NCBI RefSeq assembly: GCF_010681825.2
Contig: NZ_CP066776.1
Coordinates: forward strand, 2,480,001 to 2,544,000
Direction: 5' to 3'
DNA length: 64,000 bases
DNA from: Sulfuriroseicoccus oceanibius
Lineage (GTDB): Bacteria > Verrucomicrobiota > Verrucomicrobiia > Verrucomicrobiales > SLCJ01
The notes beneath the pieces are model-generated. The model did not search any database, was not told the DNA's origin, and saw only the letters and a program-made list of their open reading frames with translations. The translations under genes were made by a program, and so were the position numbers. Positions within the stretch are counted from its first letter, which is position 1. The number at the start of each line of letters is the position of its first letter. Shown in pieces: positions 3,220-21,393 of this stretch.

Positions 3220-3220
3220 G

Positions 3221-3274
3221 AAATGACGCAAATGACAGAAATGACGGCTCAAACAATCGGAACAAAATTCTTCC
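3221..3274. repeat. iteron cluster, left arm of inverted repeat
   Basis: Three direct 9-base units, AAATGACGC, AAATGACAG and AAATGACGG, fill 3221-3247, starting one base after the helicase stop. After 11 unrelated bases comes GGAACAAAATTCTTCC (3259-3274). The whole arrangement recurs inverted at 4262-4314 with the same 11-base gap. Clustered iterons beside replication genes suggest an origin or copy-control site. Confidence 0.7.
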
Positions 3275-3287
3275 CCCCTTCCTTAAA

Positions 3288-4259: not shown

Positions 4260-4261
4260 CC

Positions 4262-4314
4262 GGAAGAATTTTGTTCCATCATTTCAGCCCGTCATTTTTG
4301 TCATTTGTGTCATT
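4262..4314. repeat. iteron cluster, right arm of inverted repeat
   Basis: Inverted counterpart of 3221-3274: GGAAGAATTTTGTTCC at 4262-4277, an 11-base gap, then 26 bases (4289-4314) that are the reverse complement of the three ATGAC iterons with two or three changes. The two arms lie just outside the primase stop and start. Confidence 0.7.
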
Positions 4315-4324
4315 AGCTCCGCCG

Positions 4325-4600
4325 ATGAAGCCAAGCCCCCAACAAACACGCGCCGACGACCGGAAGCTCGAACGCATCGAATTCGACATTCAGCAGACCG
4401 CAGCAGAACCCCCAGAATCGCCACCACGAGCCGCAGGACTCGCGACGGGCATCAACCGCCAAGCACTCGAGCGGATCGGGCTGAGCCGATTACTCGCGAC
4501 CACACCGGACGCTTTGAAAGGTTGCACGACTACCAAACCGGAGCCGCCGACCGATGAGCCCGCATTTCATGCATTGCCGATTAGATCGCCGCGACGATGA
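4325..4600 (+). CDS. hypothetical protein, 91 aa
   Basis: ATG at 4325 lies 10 bases after the right iteron cluster. The product is Pro/Thr rich, hydrophilic, with a short ordered stretch in the middle (INRQALERIGLSRLLATTPDAL) that could be a helix-turn-helix-sized unit. No family recognised. Its position directly behind the primase, and the terminator shortly downstream, suggest it is the last gene of the replication block. Composition matches its neighbours. Confidence 0.45.
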   Translation: MKPSPQQTRADDRKLERIEFDIQQTAAEPPESPPRAAGLATGINRQALERIGLSRLLATTPDALKGCTTTKPEPPTDEPAFHALPIRSPRR

Positions 4601-4640
4601 CCACCCAGCGTCGCAGAGGATCCGCAGCCCGATCAATTAG

Positions 4641-4694
4641 TTTCCGTTTACGGAAATCAAAACGCCCGCCGGAGAGATCCGCGCGGGCATTTTC
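4641..4694 (+). terminator. hairpin and rho-independent terminator
   Basis: GCCCGC (4664-4669) pairs with GCGGGC (4683-4688), followed by ATTTTC. Just upstream, TTTCCG-TTTA-CGGAAA (4641-4656) forms a second perfect hairpin. Together they would end the replication transcript; the T run is short, so strength is uncertain. Confidence 0.5.
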
Positions 4695-4914
4695 GTGCAT
4701 GGATCCGGACACGAGAAAGGCGAGCGCGACGCCCCCAGCTCCCCAGCCGATACGCCGCGCCCGCCCCAACAATCGAGAGAATGGGAGGACTCTCACCCCT
4801 GCTCACTTGTCACCGCACATCGCCGGAAGTCCGTGAGGGTGACAAACGGTGCTTCTGTGAAGGCTCCCCACCACACGCGCACGCGGGAGCTCCAATTTTT
4901 AACAGCTCCGCAAT

Positions 4915-5784
4915 ATGGGATTTCTCGACAGATTCAAGCGCCGCCGCTCTAGCAAGACTCTAGCACCCAAGCACGACCAACCGATCAGCATGGCGGAATT
5001 CGACCGCAAGATCGAGGAGATCGAAGAAGCCAAAGCACGCGCAGCAGCACGCGATCAGCAACGCCGCGCCGAGATCACCGACGACTTGCCAATGGCGATG
5101 GCGCCGACCACGCCGATCACCACGAGCGCGACCACCGAGGCCACCGCGACAACAAATCAAGCGATGCCACAAACGGCACGCACTACCCAACCCGAACCAA
5201 GAACCAATATGCCGACATTCGACACTACACCAGGAACCAGCATCCACGCGTTGAAACAACAAGCCGCCGCCGCACAGAAAGCGGTTGCGGATGCCATGGG
5301 GATCAAAGACGCAGCCCAGATCCGTGCCAAGCTGAAGCTTATGCTTGCTAGCGGGAACGTTTACTACCCAGCTTGTGACATTAGCTTTGGATCAGTCTCA
5401 AAGAGGCCATCTAGCACGACTATGTTTCGCGTGGTGGAAATCGTTTCGAGCGTGGACGGTAAAAAATATCGTTACCTTGATACCATTCCCGAGCAATCCG
5501 TTCGCCGCTTGCTGGAGAAAGAAGGCTTGTCCGCCAAGCGCGAGGTCGTCGAGCCCGAGCCGCTGACGCCAGAGGAAGCGCTGAAAGTGATCGAAGGCAA
5601 GGCAGACCCGCAGAAGCCGGTTGAGCAGCCATCGCAAATCGACCTGGCGATTGAAGCCATCAAAAAACGTGAGCTCATCACCCCTCGCACATGGCTTATC
5701 GCGCGCGAATTCAAGCCCGCGTCCGTTGTCCCGCGTGATCTTTACGACGTTGGCCGCAAGACCTTCGAAGAGCTCGAATTCTAG
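4915..5784 (+). CDS. hypothetical element protein with Thr/Pro-rich linker
   Basis: A 289-residue protein of unknown family. It starts with a basic MGFLDRFKRRRSS segment, followed by an acidic/basic charged coiled-coil-like helix (residues 25-55), a Thr/Ala/Pro-rich linker (60-105), an alanine-rich helix and then a globular C-terminal half (about 125-289) with FRVVEIVSSVDGKKYRYLDTI, probably a small beta-rich domain. The short amphipathic basic N-terminus could touch membrane or DNA. It starts the second gene block of the element and is followed by two tightly linked genes. I cannot assign a function. Confidence 0.6.
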   Translation: MGFLDRFKRRRSSKTLAPKHDQPISMAEFDRKIEEIEEAKARAAARDQQRRAEITDDLPMAMAPTTPITTSATTEATATTNQAMPQTARTTQPEPRTNMPTFDTTPGTSIHALKQQAAAAQKAVADAMGIKDAAQIRAKLKLMLASGNVYYPACDISFGSVSKRPSSTTMFRVVEIVSSVDGKKYRYLDTIPEQSVRRLLEKEGLSAKREVVEPEPLTPEEALKVIEGKADPQKPVEQPSQIDLAIEAIKKRELITPRTWLIAREFKPASVVPRDLYDVGRKTFEELEF

Positions 5785-5789
5785 CCGAT

Positions 5790-6002
5790 ATGATCTTCCC
5801 GTACTTAGTAACAGAGGAAACGCTACCGGATCGCGAACCTCGCGTCATTCACATCAGCAACGACCGCCGCGCCGCGATGGACGCTTACGACGACGCATTG
5901 AAGGACGATCCCGAAGCCATCGTCTATTTCTACGAGTTGTCCGCACCGTTGAAACGCCGCAAGCCGTCCGCAATTCTCCAATCCAAATATCAAGAACCAT
6001 GA
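5790..6002 (+). CDS. hypothetical protein, 70 aa
   Basis: Starts five bases after the preceding stop and overlaps the next gene by ATGA (5999-6002), so it is translated in an operon with both. The product is small and acidic in the middle (AMDAYDDALKDDPEAIVYFYEL) with a basic tail. The N-terminal strand and single helix suggest a compact alpha/beta fold. No family recognised. Confidence 0.6.
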   Translation: MIFPYLVTEETLPDREPRVIHISNDRRAAMDAYDDALKDDPEAIVYFYELSAPLKRRKPSAILQSKYQEP

Positions 6003-6400
6003 AACGAATTCCTATTCACGAGCAGCCCGCCCCGATCAAAAACCCGCCGCTGACCGAAGCCGACTTCATCGCGGCCGCCGATGCAGCCCAACAGCACGAA
6101 AGCCCCGTCCGCGTAGCAGCGTGGTCTAACGCCGTACTTCTACGCAATAAGCGAGGGATGTGGCGCGAGATCCCGAAAGGCGATTGGGAGGCGCGTATGC
6201 GCCTGATGGGGATTCCTTCGCAGCGCTTGCAGGTTCCAGCAACCGACAAAACTCCGCAGGAAGCAAGCGAAGCGATTGCAGCCGGAGCCGATGCCTTATC
6301 GGATGATGCGTATCGAAGCGCCACCCAGATCGAATTCGATCGCGTGAAAGCGCTTGGTGTCATTAGCCGCGAAGCCTGGGCGCACATGCCGAAGAGCTAA
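5999..6400 (+). CDS. hypothetical protein, 133 aa
   Basis: ATG at 5999 overlaps the previous stop (ATGA), the typical sign of translational coupling; the frame is open upstream but only as the shadow of 4915-5784. The product is soluble, with a repeated alanine-rich helical character, a WSNAVLLRNKRGMWREIPKGDWEARMRLMG segment read here as strand-turn-helix, and a C-terminal helix. No conserved family recognised. Third gene of the 4915-6400 operon. Confidence 0.6.
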   Translation: MKRIPIHEQPAPIKNPPLTEADFIAAADAAQQHESPVRVAAWSNAVLLRNKRGMWREIPKGDWEARMRLMGIPSQRLQVPATDKTPQEASEAIAAGADALSDDAYRSATQIEFDRVKALGVISREAWAHMPKS

Positions 6401-6539
6401 CGACGATCAAGGCTCAGATTGCCAACGTAAAACCTTCAGCCTGACGGGAAACCGCCGGGCTCGAAGTGGTAAGAGAGCGGTTGTTTTATCCCATATCGTT
6501 AGCTCTCTAGCTTCCGCCGGACGGTTCACCGAGCGAAGC

Positions 6540-6569
6540 CCCGCCGCTGGCAATGGTGTTGGCGGCGGG
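6540..6569. other. strong GC hairpin between gene blocks
   Basis: CCCGCCGC (6540-6547) pairs with GCGGCGGG (6562-6569). It is followed by ATTCATTTCTC, a poor T run, so it may be a weak terminator for the 4915-6400 operon or a structure around the next start. The preceding 140 bases hold no gene; AGAGAGC and GCTCTCT there could also pair over a 30-base loop. Confidence 0.4.
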
Positions 6570-6597
6570 ATTCATTTCTCTAACGCCGCCGAGACAG

Positions 6598-7047
6598 ATG
6601 CCGATCACTGACCCACTCGCACCAGAGATTACCGTGCCGCTCTCATGCGCTGGAGACGTCGCCGTCTTCGATCACCCCATCGAGCACATCGAGCCCGAGC
6701 CCGACCGCGAGCAGATCCAAGCCGACCCTGCCGAAGTGCTTCACGCAATGATTCGCGCAGTTGCGCAGATCGACCTGGACGCAGTCGAAACAATCACACC
6801 CGACGACGTGGTGAAGATTCAGCGCAGATTCATCGCATTGCTTTATGTGGTGAGGCCGGACGTTATTCGAGGCGCGACCGTGCGCGATATTGCTGCCGCG
6901 TTAGGCATTAGCTTTCAGCCATTCCACCGCCACGTTCGCAAAGTCTCAAAGGCGACCGGACTTCACTACAGGACGGAAAAAACAAGTGGCAACTACCGAA
7001 CAGCAGCAACCGCAGCGCATAAGCGCAAACGCGCAGGAAAGCCATAG
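6598..7047 (+). CDS. putative HTH regulatory protein
   Basis: A 149-residue protein. Residues about 60-125 look like a DNA-binding HTH: a helix (VVKIQRRFIALLYVV), then GATVRDIAAALGISFQPFHRHVRKVSK, with the 'IAAALGIS' turn typical of sigma-like and replication-initiator-like HTHs. The C-terminal tail is basic (HKRKRAGKP). ATG at 6598 is preferred over an in-frame ATG at 6553 because the latter sits in the loop of a strong hairpin. It lies upstream of the possible small terminase gene, so it could be a late-gene activator, though nothing shows this directly. Confidence 0.55.
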   Translation: MPITDPLAPEITVPLSCAGDVAVFDHPIEHIEPEPDREQIQADPAEVLHAMIRAVAQIDLDAVETITPDDVVKIQRRFIALLYVVRPDVIRGATVRDIAAALGISFQPFHRHVRKVSKATGLHYRTEKTSGNYRTAATAAHKRKRAGKP

Positions 7048-7378
7048 GAGGCCGTTTAACGCGGTTTTATCAATTCGCGGCACTCTATACCAAAACACAA
7101 TCAAAACGCCATGAGCGACGCGAGAGAGCGCGAGAGAGGGGCAACCCTACCCACCCCCATTGGGACCCCTATAATTTTGAACCTTTCATTCAGGTCGCAC
7201 CGAAGCTCGGTCAAAATTCGTCAATCTGAGATCGCGCTACTGCGGGATTCATAGCAAGCGATTGCTCCCACAGTCCAGCAGCGTCCCGCAATGGTGACAA
7301 CGTGAGCACCAATGAAGGCTCGAATTCCACAGAAAGCACGACGCCACGAAGCGGAACGCGAGCGGGACAAATTCCACT
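7048..7378. other. non-coding stretch before the terminase-like gene
   Basis: About 330 bases without a convincing gene. It contains a purine-rich GCGAGAGAGCGCGAGAGAGG tract, CCCACCCCCATTGGGACCCC, and an AT-rich TATAATTTTGA box near 7170 that could be a -10 region. In satellites and phages the packaging site often lies beside the small terminase gene; whether one is here cannot be told from sequence alone. Confidence 0.35.
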
Positions 7379-8005
7379 ATGAAGCAATCACTCGACACAA
7401 TCGCGGAACGCCTATGCGCCGCCTATGGATTGGAGCAAGGCACTATCGCCAAGAGCACAATCCACCGCTGGAAACAACGGCAGTATCCGATCACGCAACC
7501 CGCAGCCCTTCTAATCATCCTGGGCAACCTACAGCGCCAGCCAGAGTGGTTTGAACAAGCCAAGCGCCACCTTCACGCGACCGCAGCGGAGGCAGGATCA
7601 CCGACCACCCCGCCGCAGGACATCGCCGACGCTATCAATGCGCAACTGGAGAAGCTTCACGCCGAGATGAGCGATGCCACCGACTACGCCACCGCGCGGA
7701 CGCTGAAGACCAAGACGAGCGCAGCCTATGATTTGTTGAGGCTATCCCGTGCGATGGGTGAGCTAGTGAGCGTTGAGAAAGCTCACGACGCTGGCTTCAG
7801 GATGGGAACAATGGTGAAAGCGATGCTTAACCGAATGGTGGACACGTTGCCGCCAATGCTCGCCGGTCTGGACGAGGTGGGAATTGTGAAGGTGCTCAGG
7901 CCGTACTTGGATCAAACGTTGCGCGAGTTCCACGAGGCCACCGCGAGAGAGCTCGAAGCATTGAAAGACGAGGCTGAAATTGAAGGCGAAAGGGGCGCCA
8001 AATGA
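7379..8005 (+). CDS. putative small terminase subunit-like protein
   Basis: A 208-residue protein. The N-terminus (residues 1-65) looks like a small HTH (TIAERLCAAYGL, then STIHRWKQRQYPITQPAALLIIL), followed by a helical region (75-130) and a C-terminal segment with MLNRMVDTLPPMLAGLDEVG and VLRPYLDQTLREF. That order, an N-terminal HTH, a central coiled coil and a C-terminal 'lP..la..d...v...L' helix pair, is what Nu1-like small terminase subunits show. In phage satellites a private small terminase redirects packaging. I am not sure of the family; a replication-linked DNA-binding protein is the alternative. Confidence 0.45.
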   Translation: MKQSLDTIAERLCAAYGLEQGTIAKSTIHRWKQRQYPITQPAALLIILGNLQRQPEWFEQAKRHLHATAAEAGSPTTPPQDIADAINAQLEKLHAEMSDATDYATARTLKTKTSAAYDLLRLSRAMGELVSVEKAHDAGFRMGTMVKAMLNRMVDTLPPMLAGLDEVGIVKVLRPYLDQTLREFHEATARELEALKDEAEIEGERGAK

Positions 8006-8992: not shown

Positions 8993-9080
8993 TGGCGGAG
9001 AGGGTGGGATTCGAACCCACGGAGACTTTCGCCTCGGCGGTTTTCAAGACCGCTGCATTCGACCACTCTGCCACCTCTCC
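8993..9080 (-). tRNA. tRNA-Ser(UGA)
   Basis: Read on the minus strand, the acceptor GGAGAGG pairs exactly with CCTCTCC, the anticodon loop is CTTGAAA with anticodon TGA (9044-9046 on the plus strand), the variable arm is long as in class II tRNAs, and GGTTCGAATCC is the T arm. Discriminator G and an encoded CCA (8993-8995) complete the 88-base gene. Its 3' end faces the mobile element, the usual geometry for integration into a tRNA gene. Confidence 0.95.
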
Positions 9081-10465: not shown

Positions 10466-11728
10466 ATGTCCGGAAAGCGCTCATTGATCAACCACCACAT
10501 GCGGCAACTGCTCGACCAACATTCGGTCGATGAGTTTTCCCAACGGCTCCAACTCGACACCGAAGACCTGCCGCGTGCGCTCCCCGCCACCGCAAAATGC
10601 ACCGCTGGGCGCGCGGACAAGCTGTGGACCCGACTCAATGCCCCGGAAGCCGTGCGCGAGACCTTGCTCGACCCCACCACCCGCGACCAGATCGAGTCCT
10701 ATTCCGGCAACATAGAAAACTGCATCGGCTCGGTGAACGTGCCGGTTGGTGTGGTCGGGCCGCTGCGCGTGCGTGGGTTCTTCGCCCACGGCGACTACCC
10801 CGTCCCACTCGCCACCAGCGAGGCGGCACTGGTGGCCAGCTACCATCGCGGTGCACGATTGATCAGCGCTGCCGGAGGGGCCCGCTCCGTGTTGCTCAAT
10901 CAGGCGGTCACGAGATCGCCCGCCTTTGCGTTCCGCGACATGATCGAAGCCGGCCGCTTCATCGCCTGGATCAGCGAACAGTTCGACCACCTGTGCGCTC
11001 GCGCCAACGCCACCACCTCACACGGCGAGCTACTGGACATGAGCATCACCGCCGAGGGCAACCACGTGTACCTCAACTTCGAGTTCAGCACCGGCGACGC
11101 CTCGGGCCAGAACATGGTCACCATCGCCACCCAGCACGCGTTTGAATACATCCTCGAGCACAGCCCGATCGCCCCCCAGGAGGCCTATGTCGAAGGCAAC
11201 CTCTCCGGCGACAAAAAGGCCAGCGCCCAAGCGTTCACCACCGTCCGCGGGAAAAAGGTCAGCGCTGAGGTCATCATCCCCGCCGACCTGCTGGAAAAAC
11301 ACGTCCACGCCACACCGCAACAACTCGTGGACTACTGGCGCATGTCGGCGGTAGGTGGCGTACTCAGCGGTACCATTGGCGTGCACGGGCACTTCGCCAA
11401 TGGGCTCGCGGCCCTTTATATTGCCACCGGTCAGGACGCCGCGTGCGTTGCCGAGTCCGCCGTGGGGGTCACCCGCTTCGAGACCACCGACGACGGATCA
11501 CTCTACGCCGCTGTGACACTGCCGGGCATCATGGTCGGAACTGTGGGTGGTGGAACGGGGCTTCCGTCACAGCGGGCGTGCCTTGAGTTGATGGGACTGA
11601 GCGGGGCAGGAAAATCCGGAGCCCTCGCCGAGGTCACCGGTGCTTTGTTGTTAGGCGGAGAAATCTCCATCATCGCAGCACTCGCGGCCGGGCACTTCAC
11701 CCGAGCCCACCGCAAGTTGGCCAGATAA
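10466..11728 (+). CDS. hydroxymethylglutaryl-CoA reductase
   Basis: A 420-residue enzyme reducing HMG-CoA to mevalonate with NAD(P)H. Family marks: ENCIGSVNVPVGVVGPL at about residue 84 (substrate binding, catalytic Glu), TSEAALVAS near 117, the DASGQNM loop near 211 (DAMGMN-like), GTVGGGTGLPSQ near 358, and the catalytic His in the C-terminal GHFTRAHRK. The 'ENVIG' block and length fit class I-like enzymes without the membrane domain. ATG at 10466 is used; five codons more are possible. It leads a co-oriented cluster with a UbiA enzyme 33 bases downstream. Most bacteria make isoprenoids by the MEP route, and no other mevalonate gene lies here, so this enzyme probably feeds a dedicated product. 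Confidence 0.9.
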   Translation: MSGKRSLINHHMRQLLDQHSVDEFSQRLQLDTEDLPRALPATAKCTAGRADKLWTRLNAPEAVRETLLDPTTRDQIESYSGNIENCIGSVNVPVGVVGPLRVRGFFAHGDYPVPLATSEAALVASYHRGARLISAAGGARSVLLNQAVTRSPAFAFRDMIEAGRFIAWISEQFDHLCARANATTSHGELLDMSITAEGNHVYLNFEFSTGDASGQNMVTIATQHAFEYILEHSPIAPQEAYVEGNLSGDKKASAQAFTTVRGKKVSAEVIIPADLLEKHVHATPQQLVDYWRMSAVGGVLSGTIGVHGHFANGLAALYIATGQDAACVAESAVGVTRFETTDDGSLYAAVTLPGIMVGTVGGGTGLPSQRACLELMGLSGAGKSGALAEVTGALLLGGEISIIAALAAGHFTRAHRKLAR

Positions 11729-11761
11729 CCACCACCTGCTGCAGCATCGCTTTCCCGATCC

Positions 11762-12691
11762 ATGGAATCCACCGCATCAAACGAATCCGCGCTCTCGTTC
11801 CCACGACGCTTCTGGCGCTACCAGTCCGAGCGCTTTCCATTGGTTCAACACAGCCCGTTGGTTGCCGCGTTCAGCGCGTGTGCCGTCATCTTCCCCACTC
11901 TGCTGGCCGACGCCGTACTGCCCGGTTGGGAAGCATTCGCCGGTGCGTTTATCGTCTGCCTGTGGTTCTTCTTCCAACTGCGCATTGCAGACGAATTCAA
12001 AGACAACGAAGAGGACACGCAGTTCCGCCCCTACCGTCCGGTTCCCCGCGGGCTGATCAAGTTGCGCGAGCTGGGCATACTCTTTGTTATTGGCGCGCTG
12101 ATCCAAGCCGCGGTGGCTTGGTATCTGGCGCCGGCATTGCTGATCATTCTCGCCATTGCCTGGGCCTACCTCGCGCTGATGAGCGTCGAGTTCTTCGCCG
12201 GCGACTGGCTCAAAGCGCGCCCCATCACTTATCTGTGGACGCACATGCTCATCATGCCGCTGGTCGATCTGTTTGCCACCGCGTGTTACTGGCTTCCGGC
12301 GGGCAGCCACCCTGGGCTGCCATTGGTGGCATTCCTCGCAGCAAGCTTCGCCAATGGCCTGGTGATCGAAGTCGGCCGCAAGTGCCGCCAACCCGACGAC
12401 GAAGAGGATGGCGTACCAACCTACAGCAAACTCTGGGGCCGCGACCGCTCGGTGACGGTGTGGCTCGGCTGTCAGATCGCAACCGGGGCATTTGCAATTC
12501 TAGCAGCCCTTGCCGCCGGCACAGTGTGGCTGGTCGCAGCCGTGCTCGGTGCCGCGTTCGCCTACTCGCTGGTCCAACGCCGACGCTTCATCAATGGCCA
12601 CCACGGCAAATGCATCGAAACCGCCTCCGGCATCTGGACACTCGCCCTCTACCTCGCACTCGGACCACTGAGCTGGCTGCTAGTCAGGTAG
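11762..12691 (+). CDS. UbiA-family prenyltransferase
   Basis: A 309-residue integral membrane protein with eight or nine hydrophobic helices. The first Asp-rich motif reads RIADEFKDNEEDTQFRPYRP (about residues 75-94), the position where UbiA enzymes have NDxxDxxxD followed by RP; the second acidic motif is QPDDEEDGVPTYSKLWGRD (about 210-228). Both bind the Mg-pyrophosphate of a prenyl donor. UbiA enzymes attach prenyl chains to aromatic acids, heme, glycerol phosphates or sugars. Placed directly after HMG-CoA reductase, it probably uses an isoprenoid diphosphate. The acceptor cannot be read from sequence. The first motif differs from the usual NDxxD, a hint of an unusual substrate. Confidence 0.85.
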   Translation: MESTASNESALSFPRRFWRYQSERFPLVQHSPLVAAFSACAVIFPTLLADAVLPGWEAFAGAFIVCLWFFFQLRIADEFKDNEEDTQFRPYRPVPRGLIKLRELGILFVIGALIQAAVAWYLAPALLIILAIAWAYLALMSVEFFAGDWLKARPITYLWTHMLIMPLVDLFATACYWLPAGSHPGLPLVAFLAASFANGLVIEVGRKCRQPDDEEDGVPTYSKLWGRDRSVTVWLGCQIATGAFAILAALAAGTVWLVAAVLGAAFAYSLVQRRRFINGHHGKCIETASGIWTLALYLALGPLSWLLVR

Positions 12692-12754
12692 CCCTTCTAT
12701 AACCAGCGGGCACCACCTAAAACGTAAAAACCTCACCACCTAAAACCTCACCCG

Positions 12755-15208
12755 ATGTCCATCATCCCCTTTAGCCACGAGCTGGCGACTGATCCTGCGG
12801 TTGTCGGAGGAAAATCCGCGGCGCTCGCACGGCTCACCGCTGCCGGGCTTCCGGTTCCTGCTGGTTTTTCCGTTCCTAACGACGACGCCCCAACGACCGC
12901 CGAGCTCCAACACGCCGTCGATTCACTGGGAGGCTCACTTTTCGCCGTCCGCTCATCGGCCACCGAGGAAGATGGAGCCAACCACTCATTCGCCGGCCAA
13001 TTTGATTCATTTCTCGAACTGAGCGCCGACCAGGTAGCCAAGCATGTCGAGAAAGTGCGGGCATCCGCCAGCGCTCCGGCGATCCAACAATACGCCAAAG
13101 AACACGCCCTGCCCGCCCCATCGGTCCCTGCCGTCTTGGTCCAACGCATGATCCCCGCCGAGTTCGCAGGTGTGGCTTTCAGCGCCGACCCGGTTTCCGG
13201 CCGCCGCTCGGTCGTCGTCATCAGCGCGGTCACGGGCACGGGAGAGAAGCTCGTTTCCGGTGATGTCGACGGCGAAACCTGGACCTGTGACCATGGCGGC
13301 CACATCCTCAGCCAGCCGGAAAAACCGGAGCTCTCCGCAGCGCAGGCCGGCAGGGTGGCGCGGCTTGCCATTGCTTGCGCCGAATACTTCGAGCACCCGC
13401 AGGATATCGAATGGGCGATCGTGGGCGACGACGTTTTCCTGCTCCAAAGCCGGCCGATCACCACACTCGGCGCACTCCCCGACCCGGACGAACCTCTCAC
13501 CATCTGGGACAACAGCAACATCGCCGAAAGCTATAGCGGACTCACGTTACCACTCACCTTCAGCTTCGCCCGCCGCGCGTACGAACACGTCTACCGCGAG
13601 TTCTGTAAAATCCTCAGTGTTCCGGAAAGCCGCATCGAAGCGCACGACGACGTCTTCCCGAAGATGCTCGGACAGTTCCGCGGCCAGGTTTACTACAATC
13701 TGGTGAGCTGGTACCGGGTGCTGGCAATGCTTCCCGGCTATCAGGTCAACCGCCGGTTCATGGAGCAGATGATGGGCGTCAAAGAACCGCTGCCCGATGA
13801 AATCTCGGAGCGCATCGCGGCGGAAATGAAGTCGTCAAAAGCGGCCGACACCATCGCCCTGTCCCGCACGCTGGCAGCTCTGGTCTGGCGCCGCATCCGC
13901 CTCGGCGGCACCATCGACCGCTTCAACCATCGCCTCGAAGCGGCGCTGAGGGAAGAAACACCGGTCGCCGAGATGACAGGTCCGCAGCTCGTTGCCCACT
14001 ACCGCGATCTGGAACGTCAGTTGCTCAAACAGTGGGATGCTCCGCTGATCAACGATTTCTTCGCCATGATCATCCACGGCGTGCTCCGGGCCACAGCGAT
14101 CAAATGGCTGGGCGATGAATCCCACGCCAACGAACTGGTCAGCGGATGCCGCGACATCGTCAGCGCCGAGCCGCCGCGCCGCATCGCTGAAATGGCCACC
14201 ATTGCCCGCACCAACCACGCGCTGGCAAAAACGCTCGCGGATCCTGACATCCCAGCGGCCACCAGGCTGAATGCCCTGCGGCAAAACCACCAACTGGGTG
14301 AGCTTTTCACCAGCTACCTTGATAAGTTCGGCGACCGCTGCCTCGGTGAGCTGAAGCTCGAAAGCCCGACCGTCGCCGACGATCCGGCAGCGCTGCTCCA
14401 ATCCATCGGCGCGATGGCTCTGCGCCCACCGGCACCAGCTGATGCCGCTCCACCCGAATCCACGGATGAGCAAACATTCAAACAAATCCGCTCACCGCTG
14501 AAGCGCTGGATGTTCCGCCGCATCGTCAACGAAGCCCGCGACCGCGTGCAAGACCGCGAGAACCTGCGCTTCGAGCGCACCCGGTTGTTTGGACGTGTGC
14601 GCAAAATTGCCAAAGCGCTGGGAAGACATCTAGCCACCGACGGCCTCCTCGACTCCGCGGACGACGCATTCCATCTGGATCTCGCCACGTTGCTAGGGGT
14701 TTACGAAGGCACCCACGAGGCATCGCAGCTGCGCGACAGTGTAGAGGCTAGCAAACAGTGCTTCGCGCGCCATGCGGCGGCGCCCCCACCGCCGGACCGC
14801 TTCACCACCCGTGGTGCCATGCACCGGCATGCCGATGTTCAGGAAAGCGCGCCGGCCGCAGCCTGCGACGGTGATGCGCTCCAAGGGCTGGGCGCGTGCC
14901 GCGGCGTGGTGCGTGGCAAAGTCCGCGTAGTCATCGACCCGACCGACGCCCGCCTCGAGCCCGGCGAAATCCTCGTCGCCCGCCAGACCGATCCGGGTTG
15001 GGTCGTGCTCTTTCCCTCGGCCAGCGGCCTGTTGGTCGAGCGCGGCAGCTTGCTCTCGCACTCCGCCATTGTCGCCCGCGAACTGAACCTCCCCTGCGTC
15101 GTCTCGCTGAGCCACATCACCCGCACGCTGCAAACCGGCGACGAAGTGGAGATGGACGGTAGCACCGGATCCGTACGCATTCTAACCCAAGCCAACTCCC
15201 CCTCATGA
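12755..15208 (+). CDS. PEP synthase/rifampin phosphotransferase-like dikinase
   Basis: An 817-residue enzyme. Residues about 1-245 are the ATP-grasp PEP/pyruvate-binding domain (VGGKSAALARL, RSSATEED, FAGVAFSADPVSGRR, DIEWAIVGDDVFLLQSRPIT). The middle (about 250-690) is a helical substrate domain beginning WDNSNIAESYSGLTLPLTFSF, as in rifampin phosphotransferase. The C-terminus is the swivelling phosphohistidine domain: GSLLSHSAIVARELNLPCVV with His769. There is no PEP/pyruvate TIM barrel, so it should move a phosphate from ATP, via His, to a small-molecule hydroxyl, not make PEP. Its stop overlaps the next start (ATGA at 15205), so the two are coupled. The acceptor is unknown; an alcohol intermediate of the cluster is the obvious guess. 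Confidence 0.8.
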   Translation: MSIIPFSHELATDPAVVGGKSAALARLTAAGLPVPAGFSVPNDDAPTTAELQHAVDSLGGSLFAVRSSATEEDGANHSFAGQFDSFLELSADQVAKHVEKVRASASAPAIQQYAKEHALPAPSVPAVLVQRMIPAEFAGVAFSADPVSGRRSVVVISAVTGTGEKLVSGDVDGETWTCDHGGHILSQPEKPELSAAQAGRVARLAIACAEYFEHPQDIEWAIVGDDVFLLQSRPITTLGALPDPDEPLTIWDNSNIAESYSGLTLPLTFSFARRAYEHVYREFCKILSVPESRIEAHDDVFPKMLGQFRGQVYYNLVSWYRVLAMLPGYQVNRRFMEQMMGVKEPLPDEISERIAAEMKSSKAADTIALSRTLAALVWRRIRLGGTIDRFNHRLEAALREETPVAEMTGPQLVAHYRDLERQLLKQWDAPLINDFFAMIIHGVLRATAIKWLGDESHANELVSGCRDIVSAEPPRRIAEMATIARTNHALAKTLADPDIPAATRLNALRQNHQLGELFTSYLDKFGDRCLGELKLESPTVADDPAALLQSIGAMALRPPAPADAAPPESTDEQTFKQIRSPLKRWMFRRIVNEARDRVQDRENLRFERTRLFGRVRKIAKALGRHLATDGLLDSADDAFHLDLATLLGVYEGTHEASQLRDSVEASKQCFARHAAAPPPPDRFTTRGAMHRHADVQESAPAAACDGDALQGLGACRGVVRGKVRVVIDPTDARLEPGEILVARQTDPGWVVLFPSASGLLVERGSLLSHSAIVARELNLPCVVSLSHITRTLQTGDEVEMDGSTGSVRILTQANSPS

Positions 15209-16308
15209 CGCGCAGTGAAGTTCAATCGCGCACCCGTTTCGACCTCGTGCGCTACGCCAACACATGGGAGGATGCCGACATCCTGGTCGAGGCCCTTGCT
15301 CCCGGGAACCGGCACTGCCTAAGCATCGGCTCGGCGGGTGACAACTCGTTCTCCCTCCTCGCCGCGGGTGCCGCATCGGTCACGGCCGTCGAAATGAACC
15401 CGACGCAGGTCGCATGCATTGAGTTGCGCAAGGCCGCCTACCACCGCCTCGATCACGCTGGGTTCCTCGCCCTGCTCGGTCACCGCGAATGCCCCGATCG
15501 CAGCGCGCTCTACCAACAGTGCTCTCCTGACCTTAGCGCATCATCCCGCGACTACTGGGACAGCCAACCGGAAACGATCGCAGCAGGCTTCGCCACCGTG
15601 GGCAAGTTCGAGTCCTACTTCCGCATCTTCCGTACCCGCGTGTTGCCACTGGCGCATTCAAAACGCCGTGTCGCCCGTTTGTTGGAGCCGAAGGAGGCCA
15701 CGGAACGCGCCCGATTCTACGATGATGAATGGAACACATGGCGCTGGCGGGCGGTGTTCCACCTCTTCTTTTCGCGCCAGGTCATGGGGATGCTGGGGCG
15801 CTCGCCGGCATTCTTCAAGTACGTCGAAGGCAGCGTCGCCGACCGCATCCTCGAACGAACCGAGCACGCCCTGCGCGAACTGGATCCCTCCTGCAACCCC
15901 TACCTCCACTACATCCTCAGCGGCAGCTACCCCGACCACGCCCTGCCCCACGCGCTGCGGCCGGAGAACTTCGAGCGCATCCGCTCACGGCTCGACGACT
16001 TCCACATCGTCAACGCACCCATCGAACAGATCCTGACCACCAGCGACCAACCATTCGATGCATTCAACCTGAGCGACATCTTCGAATACATGTCGGAGGA
16101 GAACTACCACGCTCTGCTCGCCCAACTGGTCGCCAATTCCTCACCGGACGCGCGGCTCGCCTATTGGAACATGCTCGCCCCACGCTCGCGCCCCGAGTCG
16201 ATGGCCGGCCAACTCGTCCCACTCACCGAGCTCGCCCAACGCCTCCACCTTGAGGACAAGGCATTCTTCTACTCACGCTTCGTGGTGGAATCGGTGACTG
16301 GGGATTAG
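15205..16308 (+). CDS. DUF3419/BtaA-like SAM-dependent 3-amino-3-carboxypropyl transferase
   Basis: A 367-residue soluble protein. The N-terminus has FDLVRYANTWEDADIL and the SAM site LSIGSAGDNSFSLLAAGA followed by VTAVEMNPTQ (about residues 37-66), the pattern of DUF3419, the family of BtaA. BtaA moves the 3-amino-3-carboxypropyl group of S-adenosylmethionine to diacylglycerol in betaine lipid synthesis. The FNLSDIFEYMSEENYHALL segment (about 285-305) matches the family's second conserved block. No BtaB N-methyltransferase follows, so a plain DGTS pathway is not supported here; the acceptor could be a prenylated or phosphorylated lipid made by the neighbours. Translationally coupled to the dikinase gene. 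Confidence 0.8.
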   Translation: MTRSEVQSRTRFDLVRYANTWEDADILVEALAPGNRHCLSIGSAGDNSFSLLAAGAASVTAVEMNPTQVACIELRKAAYHRLDHAGFLALLGHRECPDRSALYQQCSPDLSASSRDYWDSQPETIAAGFATVGKFESYFRIFRTRVLPLAHSKRRVARLLEPKEATERARFYDDEWNTWRWRAVFHLFFSRQVMGMLGRSPAFFKYVEGSVADRILERTEHALRELDPSCNPYLHYILSGSYPDHALPHALRPENFERIRSRLDDFHIVNAPIEQILTTSDQPFDAFNLSDIFEYMSEENYHALLAQLVANSSPDARLAYWNMLAPRSRPESMAGQLVPLTELAQRLHLEDKAFFYSRFVVESVTGD

Positions 16309-16335
16309 CCGAGCAACTAGGATCCGATTCGCAAC

Positions 16336-16430
16336 TCTCGGTAAACCGCACCTTCGGCGCGAGGTCACGGCGTCGGTCAATCCAGCGGATGAATCCGCTG
16401 GCTAACCAGTAAGCCATCGCTACGCGATGA
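16336..16430. repeat. composite intergenic repeat with TGAA-loop hairpin
   Basis: GGTAAACCGCACCTTCGGCGCG, then the hairpin CCAGCGGA-TGAA-TCCGCTGG (16382-16401), then GGCTAACC and ATCGCTACGCGAT. The same order of modules returns at about 28650-28740 with different stem bases but the same loop. Confidence 0.65.
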
Positions 16431-16444
16431 ACCCAGGATCGCCT

Positions 16445-16870
16445 ACGCAAGCCCCCCGCAGGATCCTGCGCCGACACCAGACCGCGCCGGATGTGCATCC
16501 CAACGATCCATTCCTCGCGTTGCGGTTCAACACCTTGCCGTCGGCGCTAACCACAGACAAACGCAAGCCCCCCCACCGCAGGATCCAGACCCGACATCAG
16601 ACCGCGCCGGAGGCGCATCCCAACGATCCATTCCTCGCGTTGCGGCTCAACACCTTGCCATCGGCGCTAACCACCGACCAACGCACGCCCCCCACCGCAG
16701 GATCCAGACCCGACATCAGACCGCGCCGGAGGCGCATCCCAACGATCCATTCCTCGCGTTGCGGTTCAACACCTTGCCGTCGGCGCTAACCACAGACCAA
16801 CGCAAGCCCCCCCACCGCAGGATCCAGACCCGACATCAGACCGCGCCGGAGGCGCATCCCAACACAGCCC
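16445..16870. repeat. tandem repeat, about 120-base unit, 3.6 copies
   Basis: Units begin at 16445, 16561, 16681 and 16800 with ACGCAAGCCCCC- or ACGCACGCCCCC-type starts and contain CGCGCCGGAGGCGCATCCCA and CCATTCCTCGCGTTGCGG. Lengths are 116, 120 and 119 bases, the last copy being partial. An open frame across part of it is an artefact of the 120-base period and breaks at the 119-base unit. The remaining spacer up to 17243 holds short dispersed repeats (for example CCCTGCAAGGGCGGC) and no gene. Confidence 0.85.
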
Positions 16871-17171
16871 TTGGCAACGCCATGGGGATCACCGCCCCGC
16901 CATTCTGAGCCCTGCAAGGGCGGCATAACAATGCGTCAAAGGAGACGGAGGCGTATTAGTGAGCAATCGTCTTCGATCACGCTTCGTCCCCCACGCCAGA
17001 CGCGGACGCCTATCAGCATACCTCTGACGTTCCAATGTGCGGAACGCACATCTCATACAACCTTGGTGTCAGCGAGCCTCAGGCGAGTGCCCCCGTAGGC
17101 ACCCCTGCCTCCCTGTGCCTCACCGCCACGTCACCGAGATCCGCAAAAAACCATCGCAAGGCAGTCGCGAA

Positions 17172-17201
17172 AATCATGTCACTCATGTTAATCCTGTCAA
17201 A
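17172..17201. repeat. solo AATCATG...TGTCAAAA motif
   Basis: AATCATGTCACTCATGTTA then ATCCTGTCAAAA, nearly identical to the right-hand end of the GxxExxY cassette (38756-38784), in the leader of the CTP-dependent kinase gene. Confidence 0.6.
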
Positions 17202-17243
17202 ACCCACCCGCGCCTAAAGCTGGTGCCACAATACGAGTCCACC

Positions 17244-18575
17244 ATGCCCACCGCGATTTTCATCCCACTCGCCCTGCTCACCGTGGGCATCCTGCTCGGC
17301 GTCTCGTCGCTGCTGCTCAAGCTGCACATGGTTTCCGCGGAGATGGCGCGCAAAATCGTCCACATCGGCATGGGCCTGGTTTGCCTGGGCTTTCCATTGC
17401 TGGAAGTATCTACCACAGCGGTGGTTCTGCTCACGTTCATCGCATCCGCAGTGTTGTTACTCATCCGATTGACCAAAGCGAGCAATCCATTTGCCTCCGC
17501 CCTCTTTAGTGTGGACCGCAGTTCCTCCGGTGAGCTGCTCTTTCCGATTGCCGTGGCCTGGGTCTATGCGGCAAGTGCCGGCAACACCGTGCTCTACATC
17601 ATCCCCGTGCTGGTGCTCACCCTCAGCGACGCCGCGGGAGCCTTGGTAGGAACACGTTACGGAGCGGAAAAATACCAATGCTCCAACGGCACGAAATCGG
17701 TCGAGGGGTCGGCTACTTTCTTCCTCGTCACCTTCCTCGCCATTCACATCCCGCTGTTATTGCTCTCCGACACCGGACGCCCCGAATGCCTGCTCATCGC
17801 GTTAGTCATCAGCGGCTTCATCACCGCGGTCGAAGGCATGTCGGGCAAAGGCACGGACAACATCCTGGTCCCCATTGGCACGTACTTCCTGCTCGATCGT
17901 TATCTCCCCATGGGCAGCGCCGAGCTGATCGGCCGTGGGCTGGCGCTCGGTGCGATTTTGCTCATCCTTCTCGCCACCCGCAAAATGACCACGCTCAATG
18001 GCGGCGCCATGTTGGCAGCCTTGCTTTACGGGTTCGGCGCACTCCACTTGGGCGGCGTGGTTCCGCTCGTCTCACTGCTTCTGCTTTTCGCACTTCACGT
18101 CGCCACCAGTGGCAAGCTCAAGAAGGCAGACTACCACAAGCCCACTCGCCACACCTCAAACCAGATCGTCGCGCTGGCGCTGCCCGCACTCGGCTGGCTG
18201 CTCACCGCCCGCTCCGGGGTGATCGCCCCGACCTGGGGACCACTCGGGTTCTGCCTCACCACCGCCTTCCAGGCCGGACTCCTCCACATCGGCATCCTGG
18301 CGCCGGACACCAACCTGAGAAAACCGCCGCTCAGCGTCATCCTCAAATCACTCATCGTGGCGGCACCAATGCTCCATATCGTCGAACCGCTGACCTTCGG
18401 CTCGCTGATGCTATTGGTCGCAGGGGCGGCCTGGGGCTGCGCCGTTCTCTTCCGTGCGTGGCGTTTGCCCATGCAACCGGACGACCCGCTAAACGGCTGG
18501 GTCAAACTCACCCTGGTCGCCACCACCGCCTCCATCGCCGTCTATCTCGTCGCCCAGCTACCCGTAGCGATCTAA
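17244..18575 (+). CDS. dolichol/phytol kinase-like membrane protein
   Basis: A 443-residue protein with about twelve hydrophobic helices. The first half matches the CTP-dependent polyprenol kinase family (SEC59, phytol kinase VTE5): EMARKIVHIGMGL near residue 33, then LSDAAGALVGTRYG (about 127-140) and NGTKSVEGSATFFLV (about 147-161), the nucleotide-binding KSxEGS block. These enzymes phosphorylate a polyprenol or phytol with CTP at the membrane. The second half is a further membrane domain of unknown role. ATG at 17244 starts right before the first membrane helix. In this cluster a prenyl alcohol is the likely substrate; a cytidylyltransferase role is the alternative. Confidence 0.75.
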   Translation: MPTAIFIPLALLTVGILLGVSSLLLKLHMVSAEMARKIVHIGMGLVCLGFPLLEVSTTAVVLLTFIASAVLLLIRLTKASNPFASALFSVDRSSSGELLFPIAVAWVYAASAGNTVLYIIPVLVLTLSDAAGALVGTRYGAEKYQCSNGTKSVEGSATFFLVTFLAIHIPLLLLSDTGRPECLLIALVISGFITAVEGMSGKGTDNILVPIGTYFLLDRYLPMGSAELIGRGLALGAILLILLATRKMTTLNGGAMLAALLYGFGALHLGGVVPLVSLLLLFALHVATSGKLKKADYHKPTRHTSNQIVALALPALGWLLTARSGVIAPTWGPLGFCLTTAFQAGLLHIGILAPDTNLRKPPLSVILKSLIVAAPMLHIVEPLTFGSLMLLVAGAAWGCAVLFRAWRLPMQPDDPLNGWVKLTLVATTASIAVYLVAQLPVAI

Positions 18576-18891
18576 CAGAATTCGAGCCATCTAAGGTTCC
18601 AGAAAAGAAGCGAAAACATTCGGCGTCCGCAGCACGCGCTACCTCCACCATCCCTCGACCTGATACTCTGGCATCCAGACCATCTGCGGTTCCCCAAAAA
18701 ACGAACACACTCGGCGTCCGCAGCACGCTCGTTTCCCGACTACCTCCCCCTCTGCGTCTTCGCGTCTCTGCGTGAGCCCTCATTCCGCCTGATCCATCAC
18801 CGACAAAAATCATGTCCATCACGGGAATCCTGTCTAAAGGTACCCTCGCCCTATCGCTCTCGGCTAAATCGCTCCAATTAGTTCCCCAGCC
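18576..18891. other. repeat-rich spacer without genes
   Basis: Contains two direct copies of CTCGGCGTCCGCAGCACGC-type sequence (near 18620 and 18710), the common CTTCGCGTCTCTGCGTGAG word at 18757-18775, and the AATCATG motif at 18808. I see no gene in it. Confidence 0.6.
18808..18838. repeat. solo AATCATG...GTCTAAA motif
   Basis: AATCATGTCCATCACGGG then AATCCTGTCTAAAG, the fourth solo copy of the motif that bounds the GxxExxY cassette, 54 bases before the GNAT gene. Confidence 0.6.
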
Positions 18892-19842
18892 ATGATCATC
18901 ACCCGCCCATCGCACCCCAACCCATCGCACTCCGCACTTACCGCGTTTCGCACCGGCGCGTCCATCTGGACCTCGTTCGGCGAAGCCGGTGCCGCCCTTT
19001 GGTTCGACTCGCTGCCCGCTCACGATGGTCTGCCGGTGGTCGCTCTGGGCAACGCCATGCTCCCGGACTCGGCACAGTCCCACGAGTTCCTCCAAAACCT
19101 CACCGACTTCGTAGCTGAGGAAATGAAGCGCGACTGCCTGTTGGTCGGACCAATGAATGGCAACACATGGATGCCCCACCGACTCGTCGTTGAGTCCAAT
19201 GGCCGCCCACCCTTCATGATGGAGCCGATGCCGCCGTCGCACTGGCAGGGATTGTTCCGCGCCGCAGGATTCGAGGAACTTTCGCGCTACTCGTCAGGCT
19301 TGATCGACCTCAACTCTGCTGCCGCTTTCGCCACCGACTTCACCAGCGTGCGCGACCGTCTCAAGCAGTCCGACGTTACCATCCGCCCGGTCGATCCATC
19401 CCGGTTCGAAGATGAACTGCACGCCCTTCACGGCCTGTGCCTGACCGCATTCGCCAACAACTTCCTCTACACCGACATCGACGAAGCCACCTTCCTGCAG
19501 CTCTACCTAAAGGCCCGCGCCGTGATCGATCCCGAGTTGGTCCTCATCGCCGAACGCGAGGGCAAACCTGTCGGCTTCGTCTTCACCCTCCCCGACCCGA
19601 GCGCCCCGGACGACCAAGCGACCCTCGTCGTGAAAACGCTCGCCGTCGCACCCGAGCGCGACCTCCGCGGCCTCGGCTCGGTACTCGTCGACGACGTCCA
19701 GCGCCAAGCCAAAGCAAATGGAATGGCACTCGCCATCCACGCCCTCCAACACGAGAACAACCAATCCCTGCGCGTCAGCCAACGCTTCGGCGCCGAGATC
19801 TTCCGCCGATATGCATTGATGGCGAAGAAGATAACGGTCTAG
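18892..19842 (+). CDS. GNAT-family acyltransferase
   Basis: A 316-residue protein. Residues about 165-316 form a GNAT fold: IRPVDPSRFEDELHALH start, VLIAEREGKPVGFVFTLPD strand pair, VVKTLAVAPERDLRGLGSVLVDDV with the acyl-CoA pyrophosphate-binding RxxxGLG, and HALQHENNQSLRVSQRFGAE near the end. The N-terminal 160 residues look like a second, degenerate GNAT-like half, as in proteins fused from two copies. Such enzymes transfer an acyl group from CoA to an amine. It sits 12 bases before the acyl ligase gene, so the ligase probably supplies its acyl donor and the amino group could come from the BtaA-like product. Substrates are inferred. Confidence 0.75.
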   Translation: MIITRPSHPNPSHSALTAFRTGASIWTSFGEAGAALWFDSLPAHDGLPVVALGNAMLPDSAQSHEFLQNLTDFVAEEMKRDCLLVGPMNGNTWMPHRLVVESNGRPPFMMEPMPPSHWQGLFRAAGFEELSRYSSGLIDLNSAAAFATDFTSVRDRLKQSDVTIRPVDPSRFEDELHALHGLCLTAFANNFLYTDIDEATFLQLYLKARAVIDPELVLIAEREGKPVGFVFTLPDPSAPDDQATLVVKTLAVAPERDLRGLGSVLVDDVQRQAKANGMALAIHALQHENNQSLRVSQRFGAEIFRRYALMAKKITV

Positions 19843-19854
19843 GATGACCGCCGC

Positions 19855-21393
19855 ATGAACCTAACGCAGCACCTCACCCGCCACGCCGCGGAGCGACCAG
19901 ACCAAGCGGCGATCATCGATTACGTATCCGGCCGCCCGCGTTCCATCAGCTTCGGCGATCTGGAGCAGCAGGTGAATGGTGGAGCCGAGGCACTGCTGCG
20001 CTCGGGATTGCGCAGTGGCGACCGGGTGGTGGTTTTCCACCCCATCGCCATCGAGCTGTATGTTTTTCTGCTGGCGGCAATGCGCGCCAATCTGGCGGTC
20101 GTGCTGATCGACCCGGCCAATGGACGCGATTTCGTCAACCGCTGCGTCCATCGTGTGATGCCCTCGGCATTCTTCGGATCCGGCAAAGCGCACCTGCTGC
20201 GCATCGGCTGCCCGGCATTGCGTACCATCCGCCGCAACTGGCACAGTTCGGGAGTAGTGCCATTTTCCAAACGCTGGAAACCGAGCCCGTCCAACCAAGC
20301 CCCCACCCTGAACACACCGGGCACGCCCCCGGCCTTGATCACCTTCACCAGTGGAGGCACCGGCGAACCGAAGGCGGCCAGCCGCACCCACGACTTCCTA
20401 TTGGCACAACACCGCGAGCTCTCCACGGCTCTGGAACATGAAGCCGGGGCCGTAGAGCTGGTTACCTTGCCAGTGTTCACCCTGGCCAATCTGGCATCCG
20501 GCATGACTTCGGTGATCGCCAACACCGACCTCCGCCACCCTGGTGCCGCCGATGCAGCCGCCATTGCCAAGCAGTGCGAACGCCACGCGATCACACGCTG
20601 CGTGGCATCCCCCGCGTTCTTCCAACGTCTCATTGCGAGCGACTGCTGGCCCGGATTCCAACACATCCACACCGGCGGGGCTCCAGTCTTCCCGCCTCTG
20701 CTTGACGCGATCGCCGAACGCGGCACCGATGCTTGGGTCGTCTACGGGTCCACCGAGGCCGAACCCATTTCTGACCAACAATGGAGTACGGTTAGCAAAG
20801 CAGACCGCGAACGCATCACGAACGGCTACGGCATTCCGGTCGGCCGCCCATCCGCCGGCACGGAGCTGCGCATCCTCATCGACCAAACAGGCACTCCACT
20901 GATCGACCTCACTCCGGAGGAACTCGACCGCCTCACCCTGGCACCCGGCCATTGCGGTGAAATCATCGTCAGCGGCGACCATGTGCTCTCCGGCTACCTC
21001 GACCGCCACGGCGACGACCTCAACAAAATCCACATCGGCTCGACGACCTGGCACCGCACCGGCGACGCCGGCATCATCGACGAATCCGGCAGACTCTGGC
21101 TACGCGGCCGCTGCAGCGCCCTGCTAGAAGACAAACCCGGCGAGACCGACGTGCTCTACCCATTCCAGATCGAAGCCGCCGCCCACACACTCGCTCCGCA
21201 GATTACCCGCTGCGCAGCCATCGACCACAACAGCCAGCGCCTCCTCATCATCGAAGGCACCATCCCCGAGAACCTCGAGCAACAACTCGCATGGGCCAAG
21301 CTCGACGCCATCCGATCCCGCCCAAAAATCCCCGTCGACAAACGCCACAACGCCAAGATCGATTATCCGAGGTTGGTGGAGGTGTTAGGGTGA
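19855..21393 (+). CDS. AMP-forming acyl ligase (ANL superfamily)
   Basis: A 512-residue adenylating enzyme. Motifs: TFTSGGTGEPKAASRTH at about residue 163 (P-loop), YGSTEAEP near 297, GEIIVSGDHVLSGYLDRHG near 365, HRTGDAG near 402, and a catalytic Lys in NAKIDYPRL near the C-terminus. It joins a carboxylic acid to AMP and then to CoA, a carrier or an amine. The RTH after the P-loop and the compact C-terminal part recall OleC-like and small fatty-acyl ligases, but the substrate cannot be fixed. Last gene of the cluster; 12 bases separate it from the GNAT gene. Confidence 0.85.
   Translation: MNLTQHLTRHAAERPDQAAIIDYVSGRPRSISFGDLEQQVNGGAEALLRSGLRSGDRVVVFHPIAIELYVFLLAAMRANLAVVLIDPANGRDFVNRCVHRVMPSAFFGSGKAHLLRIGCPALRTIRRNWHSSGVVPFSKRWKPSPSNQAPTLNTPGTPPALITFTSGGTGEPKAASRTHDFLLAQHRELSTALEHEAGAVELVTLPVFTLANLASGMTSVIANTDLRHPGAADAAAIAKQCERHAITRCVASPAFFQRLIASDCWPGFQHIHTGGAPVFPPLLDAIAERGTDAWVVYGSTEAEPISDQQWSTVSKADRERITNGYGIPVGRPSAGTELRILIDQTGTPLIDLTPEELDRLTLAPGHCGEIIVSGDHVLSGYLDRHGDDLNKIHIGSTTWHRTGDAGIIDESGRLWLRGRCSALLEDKPGETDVLYPFQIEAAAHTLAPQITRCAAIDHNSQRLLIIEGTIPENLEQQLAWAKLDAIRSRPKIPVDKRHNAKIDYPRLVEVLG

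Follow-up and report, generated by a model that had tools for sequence, protein, structure and literature searches.

What does a bacterium that makes its isoprenoids by the methylerythritol phosphate (MEP) pathway do with a gene annotated as 3-hydroxy-3-methylglutaryl-coenzyme A (HMG-CoA) reductase, set among six genes for lipid-type and amino-acid-type chemistry? The question is raised by a stretch of 64,000 nucleotides from Sulfuriroseicoccus oceanibius (Verrucomicrobiota), positions 2,480,001 to 2,544,000 of contig NZ_CP066776.1 (the window, whose numbering is used below), in which a first-pass annotation had proposed a single uncharacterised lipid cluster of seven co-oriented plus-strand open reading frames (ORFs) at 10466-21393. 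All seven are present there, and they form a real unit, co-occurring far beyond chance in at least eight phyla. Judged from sequence, this unit is on balance a conserved operon for an amino-acid-bearing, fatty-alcohol-based, homoserine-type and probably N-acylated lipid. Its members, and a repeat that lies among them, are as follows.

10466-11728, plus strand: HMG-CoA-reductase-fold enzyme (the HMGR homologue), most likely an FcrA-like reductase that turns fatty acyl-CoA into alcohol; Pfam HMG-CoA_red 1e-111 and residue pattern.
11762-12691, plus strand: membrane prenyltransferase of the UbiA family, its first Asp-rich motif being DEFKDxxxD; Pfam UbiA 2e-10.
12755-15208, plus strand: ATP dikinase of the phosphoenolpyruvate (PEP) synthase/rifampicin phosphotransferase/PigC superfamily, with PPDK_N and mobile His domain (His769); Pfam PPDK_N and PEP-utilizers, NCBIfam.
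15205-16308, plus strand: DUF3419 (BtaA-like) S-adenosylmethionine (SAM)-dependent 3-amino-3-carboxypropyl transferase; Pfam DUF3419 4e-66.
16452-16863, no strand: 120-bp tandem repeat, 3.5 copies with 93% matches, in the gap that separates the DUF3419 gene from the CTP-kinase-like gene.
17244-18575, plus strand: integral membrane protein resembling CTP-dependent alcohol kinases (CTP_transf_1/CdsA superfamily), from hits of relatives, motifs and a structural model.
18892-19842, plus strand: tandem GNAT acyltransferase; Pfam Acetyltransf_1 and AlphaFold2 model.
19855-21393, plus strand: AMP-forming acyl ligase (PRK09274 group, OleC relatives); Pfam AMP-binding 8e-44.

Conservation of the neighbourhood, named beforehand as the test of the proposal, holds far beyond Verrucomicrobiota. 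When the window genome and 112 relatives were searched for close DUF3419 genes, these were found (50-65%) in 10 of the relatives, spread over several families of the order. Seven of the 10 carry the full set in the same order and on the same strand within the stretch examined; in an eighth the set is complete up to the ligase, which is cut by a contig end, and the remaining two are either cut by a contig end or without an HMGR homologue. A scan of 84,980 species genomes gave 533 relatives of the DUF3419 protein, of which the best 80 were retrieved. Among all 99 DUF3419-anchored loci, all seven genes lie on one strand near DUF3419 in 58 (54 of 94 distinct loci, four full-set contigs having been counted twice). 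The order HMGR-UbiA-dikinase-DUF3419-CTP kinase-GNAT-ligase (RUDBKNL) accounts for 46 loci and an order beginning with GNAT and ligase (NLRUDBK) for 11, while a distant verrucomicrobial locus, L126, has all seven reshuffled as HMGR-DUF3419-CTP kinase-GNAT-ligase-UbiA-dikinase (RBKNLUD); in L126, L127 and L128 the DUF3419 gene is immediately preceded by the HMGR homologue. Within the phylum, all 12 genomes with a cluster-type HMGR also have a cluster-type DUF3419, which itself occurs in 18 of 289. Complete sets are found in Verrucomicrobiota, Pseudomonadota (including Gammaproteobacteria), Planctomycetota, Gemmatimonadota, Acidobacteriota, Bacteroidota, Rhodothermota and Deinococcota, and partial or contig-cut sets in Cyanobacteriota (contig-cut), Chloroflexota, Actinomycetota and Latescibacterota, a list that contamination of metagenome-assembled genomes may have inflated; carriers include named strains of Luteolibacter, Rubritalea, Haloferula, Alkalilimnicola and Natronospirillum.

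The unit appears to end where its seven genes end. All-against-all ORF clustering of the loci revealed no further gene of comparable frequency and no recurrent exporter, regulator, or nonribosomal peptide or polyketide synthetase (NRPS/PKS), the other large ORF families checked being ones that overlie core genes on the opposite strand. The Tol-Pal genes downstream in the window were considered as members and rejected, as they are not found in related loci. No description of the seven-gene set was found in the open-access PMC literature, in which DUF3419 papers were checked by title and abstract; the claim that the cluster is new is provisional because only open-access PMC papers were searchable.

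Within the window, genes 1-4 are closely packed, as are genes 6-7, with intergenic distances of 33, 63, -4 and 12 bases (the dikinase and DUF3419 genes overlap by 4 bases), and the CTP-kinase-like gene, the fifth, is isolated by gaps of 935 bases, which contain the tandem array, and 316 bases. Given that corresponding neighbours overlap by 4 bases in several relatives, the gaps around gene 5 resemble local insertions, and the seven genes look as if they were originally one operon. Two starts were fixed with homologues: ATG 10466 for the HMGR homologue (420 amino acids), a longer TTG ORF from 10451 being an over-extension, and ATG 17244 for the CTP-kinase-like gene (443 amino acids), for which GTG 17037 is too early.

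The name of the lead enzyme is probably a misannotation, because its carriers are MEP-type bacteria without HMG-CoA synthase and mevalonate kinase and because it bears the residue changes of FcrA, an HMGR-like fatty acyl-CoA reductase that reduces acyl-CoA and not HMG-CoA (Grossi et al. 2025, PMC11948995). The carriers use the MEP pathway: Dxr exceeded its cut-off in 38 of 38 tested, HMG-CoA synthase was detected in one of 41 and missing from 40 (four control genomes gave the expected signal), and mevalonate kinase was over its cut-off in none of 10 tested. The cluster enzymes share the fold of class I HMG-CoA reductase (the best PDB match of the window protein is 6hr7, E 1e-81) and retain its catalytic Glu559, Lys691, Asp767 and His866, but their pocket for the HMG carboxylate has been rebuilt. 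In all 66 cluster HMGRs Ser684 is replaced by Glu, Leu862 by Phe, and Lys735, which makes a salt bridge to the HMG carboxylate (PMC9500038), by a residue other than lysine (Met, Val and others); the window protein has Glu, Met and Phe at Ser684, Lys735 and Leu862, respectively. The Ser and Lys are kept in the HMGR of a Streptomyces mevalonate operon, in ten other verrucomicrobial HMGRs and in three PDB HMGRs, and in a phylogenetic tree the cluster HMGRs, together with orphan Vibrio homologues, are split from mevalonate HMGRs with starred support of 98/94. A true HMG-CoA reductase that supplies mevalonate for an isoprenoid aminolipid, as the first-pass annotation had it, would account for the catalytic residues and for a name given by similarity, but the missing enzymes and the replaced pocket residues disfavour it so strongly that we regard it as very improbable, and mevalonate supply was rejected as the role of the lead enzyme.

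FcrA offers a closer parallel. In it, too, the catalytic Glu, Lys, Asp and His are kept, Ser684 is changed to Glu, the HMG-binding lysine (printed as Lys795) is lost and Leu862 gives way to a bulky residue, and its hosts are mostly without the mevalonate pathway (PMC11948995). Since the pocket argument was made before this paper was found, the paper serves as a test of it. The characterised FcrA works in wax ester synthesis, on straight long-chain acyl-CoA; many bacterial FcrA proteins occur without wax ester synthase, for which the authors suspect other pathways, and the main text does not mention UbiA gene neighbourhoods (PMC11948995). The cluster enzyme differs in being one of seven encoded by an operon, whose other six genes are those listed above. 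With these distinctions, the HMGR homologue is most likely an alcohol-forming, FcrA-like fatty acyl-CoA reductase.

Other genes annotated or recognisable as HMG-CoA reductase invite the same scrutiny. Stand-alone genes of that name in Vibrio fluvialis, V. campbellii and other vibrios (L146, 13944-15206; L147; L148) encode proteins 56-61% identical to the cluster enzyme with Asp, Met and Phe at Ser684, Lys735 and Leu862, and are probably FcrA-like as well, outside any such cluster. On an Alteromonas macleodii plasmid (L149, 7875-9041) a divergent homologue with Ser684 replaced by Ala, Lys735 by Tyr and Leu862 by Trp lies downstream of genes annotated as AMP-binding protein, 'thermostable hemolysin', short-chain dehydrogenase/reductase and iron-containing redox enzyme, which perhaps constitute another HMGR-fold acyl reductase pathway. 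A very divergent homologue in Sinorhizobium (L150, 5887-7131; Lys735 to Ala, Arg590 to Lys) lies amid genes for acyl-CoA carboxylase subunits. In bacteria that make their isoprenoids by the MEP pathway, an annotation as HMG-CoA reductase should be read with caution, as the enzyme is often a different one.

What the lead step may be is also suggested by loci that do without it. No HMGR homologue and no CTP kinase were found near DUF3419 in L102 and L106, the fullest such loci, or in the fragments L079, L092 and L107. In L102 and L106 a class III aminotransferase is fused to an acyl-ACP-reductase-like domain, with PDB matches to PigE (4ppm) and a long-chain acyl-ACP reductase (6jzq), and is accompanied by a second dikinase and a SnoaL-like protein. 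That a different acyl-thioester reductase replaces the HMGR homologue fits reduction of a fatty acyl thioester as its step. The fusion recalls prodigiosin PigE, likewise an acyl-thioester reductase with an aminotransferase, and the cluster dikinase belongs to the PigC/RedH superfamily; however, the domain order of the fusion is reversed, scores fall far under the PigC and PigE cut-offs, and no prodigiosin genes were seen. The variant cluster of L106 (4656-9925) would be expected to yield an amine-containing analogue.

Two further parts of the first-pass proposal, a BtaA-like transferase that fits a homoserine-like head group and an acylation pair of ligase and GNAT, are supported. Enzymes of the BtaA family (DUF3419) are established to take the 3-amino-3-carboxypropyl group from SAM and place it on a lipid hydroxyl, and the cluster enzyme, which shares their fold and by family their chemistry, would fit a homoserine-like head group with a lipid hydroxyl as the most likely acceptor. 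Simple membership of BtaA was rejected given the low identity and the lack of a methyltransferase partner: the cluster proteins form a separate group about 25% identical to the other DUF3419 proteins of relatives, one of whose distant genes does adjoin a methyltransferase ORF, as in BtaA-BtaB. ORF clustering turned up no methyltransferase that recurs in the cluster (no search was made for a BtaB encoded elsewhere in the genome), so that N-acylation suits the cluster better than the trimethylation of betaine lipids; in place of a BtaB-like methyltransferase stand the GNAT and the ligase, probably an acylation pair for the free amine. The GNAT model (AlphaFold2, pLDDT 96) best matches the tandem-repeat GNAT 7q3a (E 1e-12), and the ligase is nearest to the PRK09274 group, relatives of the olefin beta-lactone synthetase OleC, with an NCBIfam score of 316 bits that stays under the cut-off of 478.

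The remaining three genes would activate and attach a chain. UbiA has an invariant first Asp-rich motif, DEFKDxxxD (D77, D81 and D85), in 69 sequences, and an acidic second motif with E214 invariant and E215 in 65 of 69; the dikinase His769 is present in all 72 letters at that alignment column. The CTP-kinase-like window protein has no Pfam hit of its own, and its assignment to the CTP-transferase superfamily is suggested by weak evidence: CTP_transf_1 hits in two of 59 relatives (best 5e-7), invariant K149, E152, G153, D203 and N204, and motifs KSxEGS, which we take to mark phytol and dolichol kinases, and DN. Weak, marginal hits to DUF92, the VTE6 family, in two of 59 relatives leave the C-terminal part perhaps DUF92-like. 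The structural model (pLDDT 92) has no significant PDB match, CdsA being the sole plausible one (probability 0.94, E 0.18, TM-score 0.21 to the query), and a profile of the protein matched no PDB sequence. The pairing of a CTP-dependent alcohol kinase with a UbiA transferase resembles tocopherol-type phytol salvage (VTE5 phytol kinase, VTE6 and the UbiA-family VTE2), from which the cluster differs in lacking aromatic-acceptor genes and in its extra FcrA-like reductase, DUF3419, GNAT and ligase.

The gene set, its distribution, the residue pattern and the missing mevalonate pathway are thus established by sequence, and from the families we infer each reaction of a pathway, its order and its product. 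The FcrA-like, NADPH-dependent reductase would convert a fatty acyl thioester to a long-chain alcohol, no mevalonate being made; the DUF3419 enzyme would pass the 3-amino-3-carboxypropyl group from SAM to an acceptor, most likely the hydroxyl of a lipid, and so create a homoserine-like head group whose free amine would probably be acylated by the ligase and tandem GNAT; and the CTP kinase, dikinase and UbiA may activate a lipid alcohol by phosphorylating it and add a prenyl or alkenyl chain activated as its diphosphate. Tentatively, and with somewhat less than even confidence, the product would represent a new class of bacterial membrane lipid, spread over at least eight phyla, in which an N-acylated homoserine-type head group would carry a fatty alcohol in ether linkage and possibly a further chain put on by UbiA, with an HMGR-fold acyl-CoA reductase at the start. 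If so, a widespread membrane or storage lipid has been missed or left unassigned by standard lipidomics, and FcrA-like enzymes in bacteria with no known wax ester role, a question left open by PMC11948995, would gain a concrete pathway.

Several observations weigh against this fatty-alcohol lipid. UbiA enzymes normally require allylic diphosphates, and these cannot arise from a saturated fatty alcohol; the scheme therefore calls for either a prenyl donor of separate origin or a substrate of the 2-enoyl type. The acceptor of the DUF3419 enzyme could be nitrogen or another group. At least six genomes keep DUF3419 without any HMGR genome-wide, most other cluster genes being retained where loci were examined, and no obvious substitute reductase was seen by eye beside the cluster in the ORF lists of the HMGR-less L040, L086, L121 and L133-L135; the reduction step can thus be lost or served from elsewhere. 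The window protein is missing the N-terminal lipid-binding domain of the characterised FcrA (its catalytic Glu is residue 84, that of N. pharaonis FcrA residue 236), and the HMGR tree contained no proven FcrA sequence, for which two reasons we write FcrA-like rather than FcrA. That extension is reported to be variable within the FcrA clade, and the Met at Lys735 falls outside the 'generally small' residues described there (PMC11948995).

An isoprenoid variant is unlikely but the most credible of the alternatives: the HMGR-fold enzyme would form an allylic alcohol by reducing an acyl thioester of branched or 2-enoyl type, a VTE5/VTE6-like CTP kinase would make its diphosphate, and UbiA would transfer it as in tocopherol synthesis, to give a prenyl or alkenyl aminolipid. 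The invariant Asp-rich motif of UbiA, the weak DUF92 hits and the presence of both genes in the core agree with it; the straight-chain substrate of FcrA, the retention of UbiA without CTP kinase in L102 and L106, and the marginal nature of the DUF92 similarity do not. The isoprenoid nature of the product, as first proposed, now depends only on UbiA and the prenol-kinase-like gene. A distinctly less probable reading makes the product a small diffusible metabolite (a metallophore, signal or antibiotic) derived from the aminobutyrate of SAM and not a membrane lipid. The distribution, patchy (10 of 112 relatives) and in part horizontal-looking, the kinship of the dikinase with PigC, RedH and rifampicin phosphotransferase, and the PigE-like variant fusion would suit such a compound, but two membrane-embedded lipid-type enzymes, a fatty acyl-CoA-type reductase and the lack of a recurrent exporter, regulator or NRPS/PKS do not. 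As improbable as the mevalonate scheme is that the HMGR homologue is a wax-ester-type FcrA merely lying beside unrelated genes: it would match the role of the characterised enzyme, but the seven genes remain linked through rearrangements and across phyla. Wax ester synthase/diacylglycerol acyltransferase (WS/DGAT) was not detected in 18 carriers, in a search whose positive control also gave no signal.

Upstream of the cluster, the window holds a D5-type primase/helicase gene and a terminase-small-subunit-like gene (1735-8005), with a tRNA-Ser nearby (8993-9080), and the region resembles a phage satellite or the remains of a prophage.

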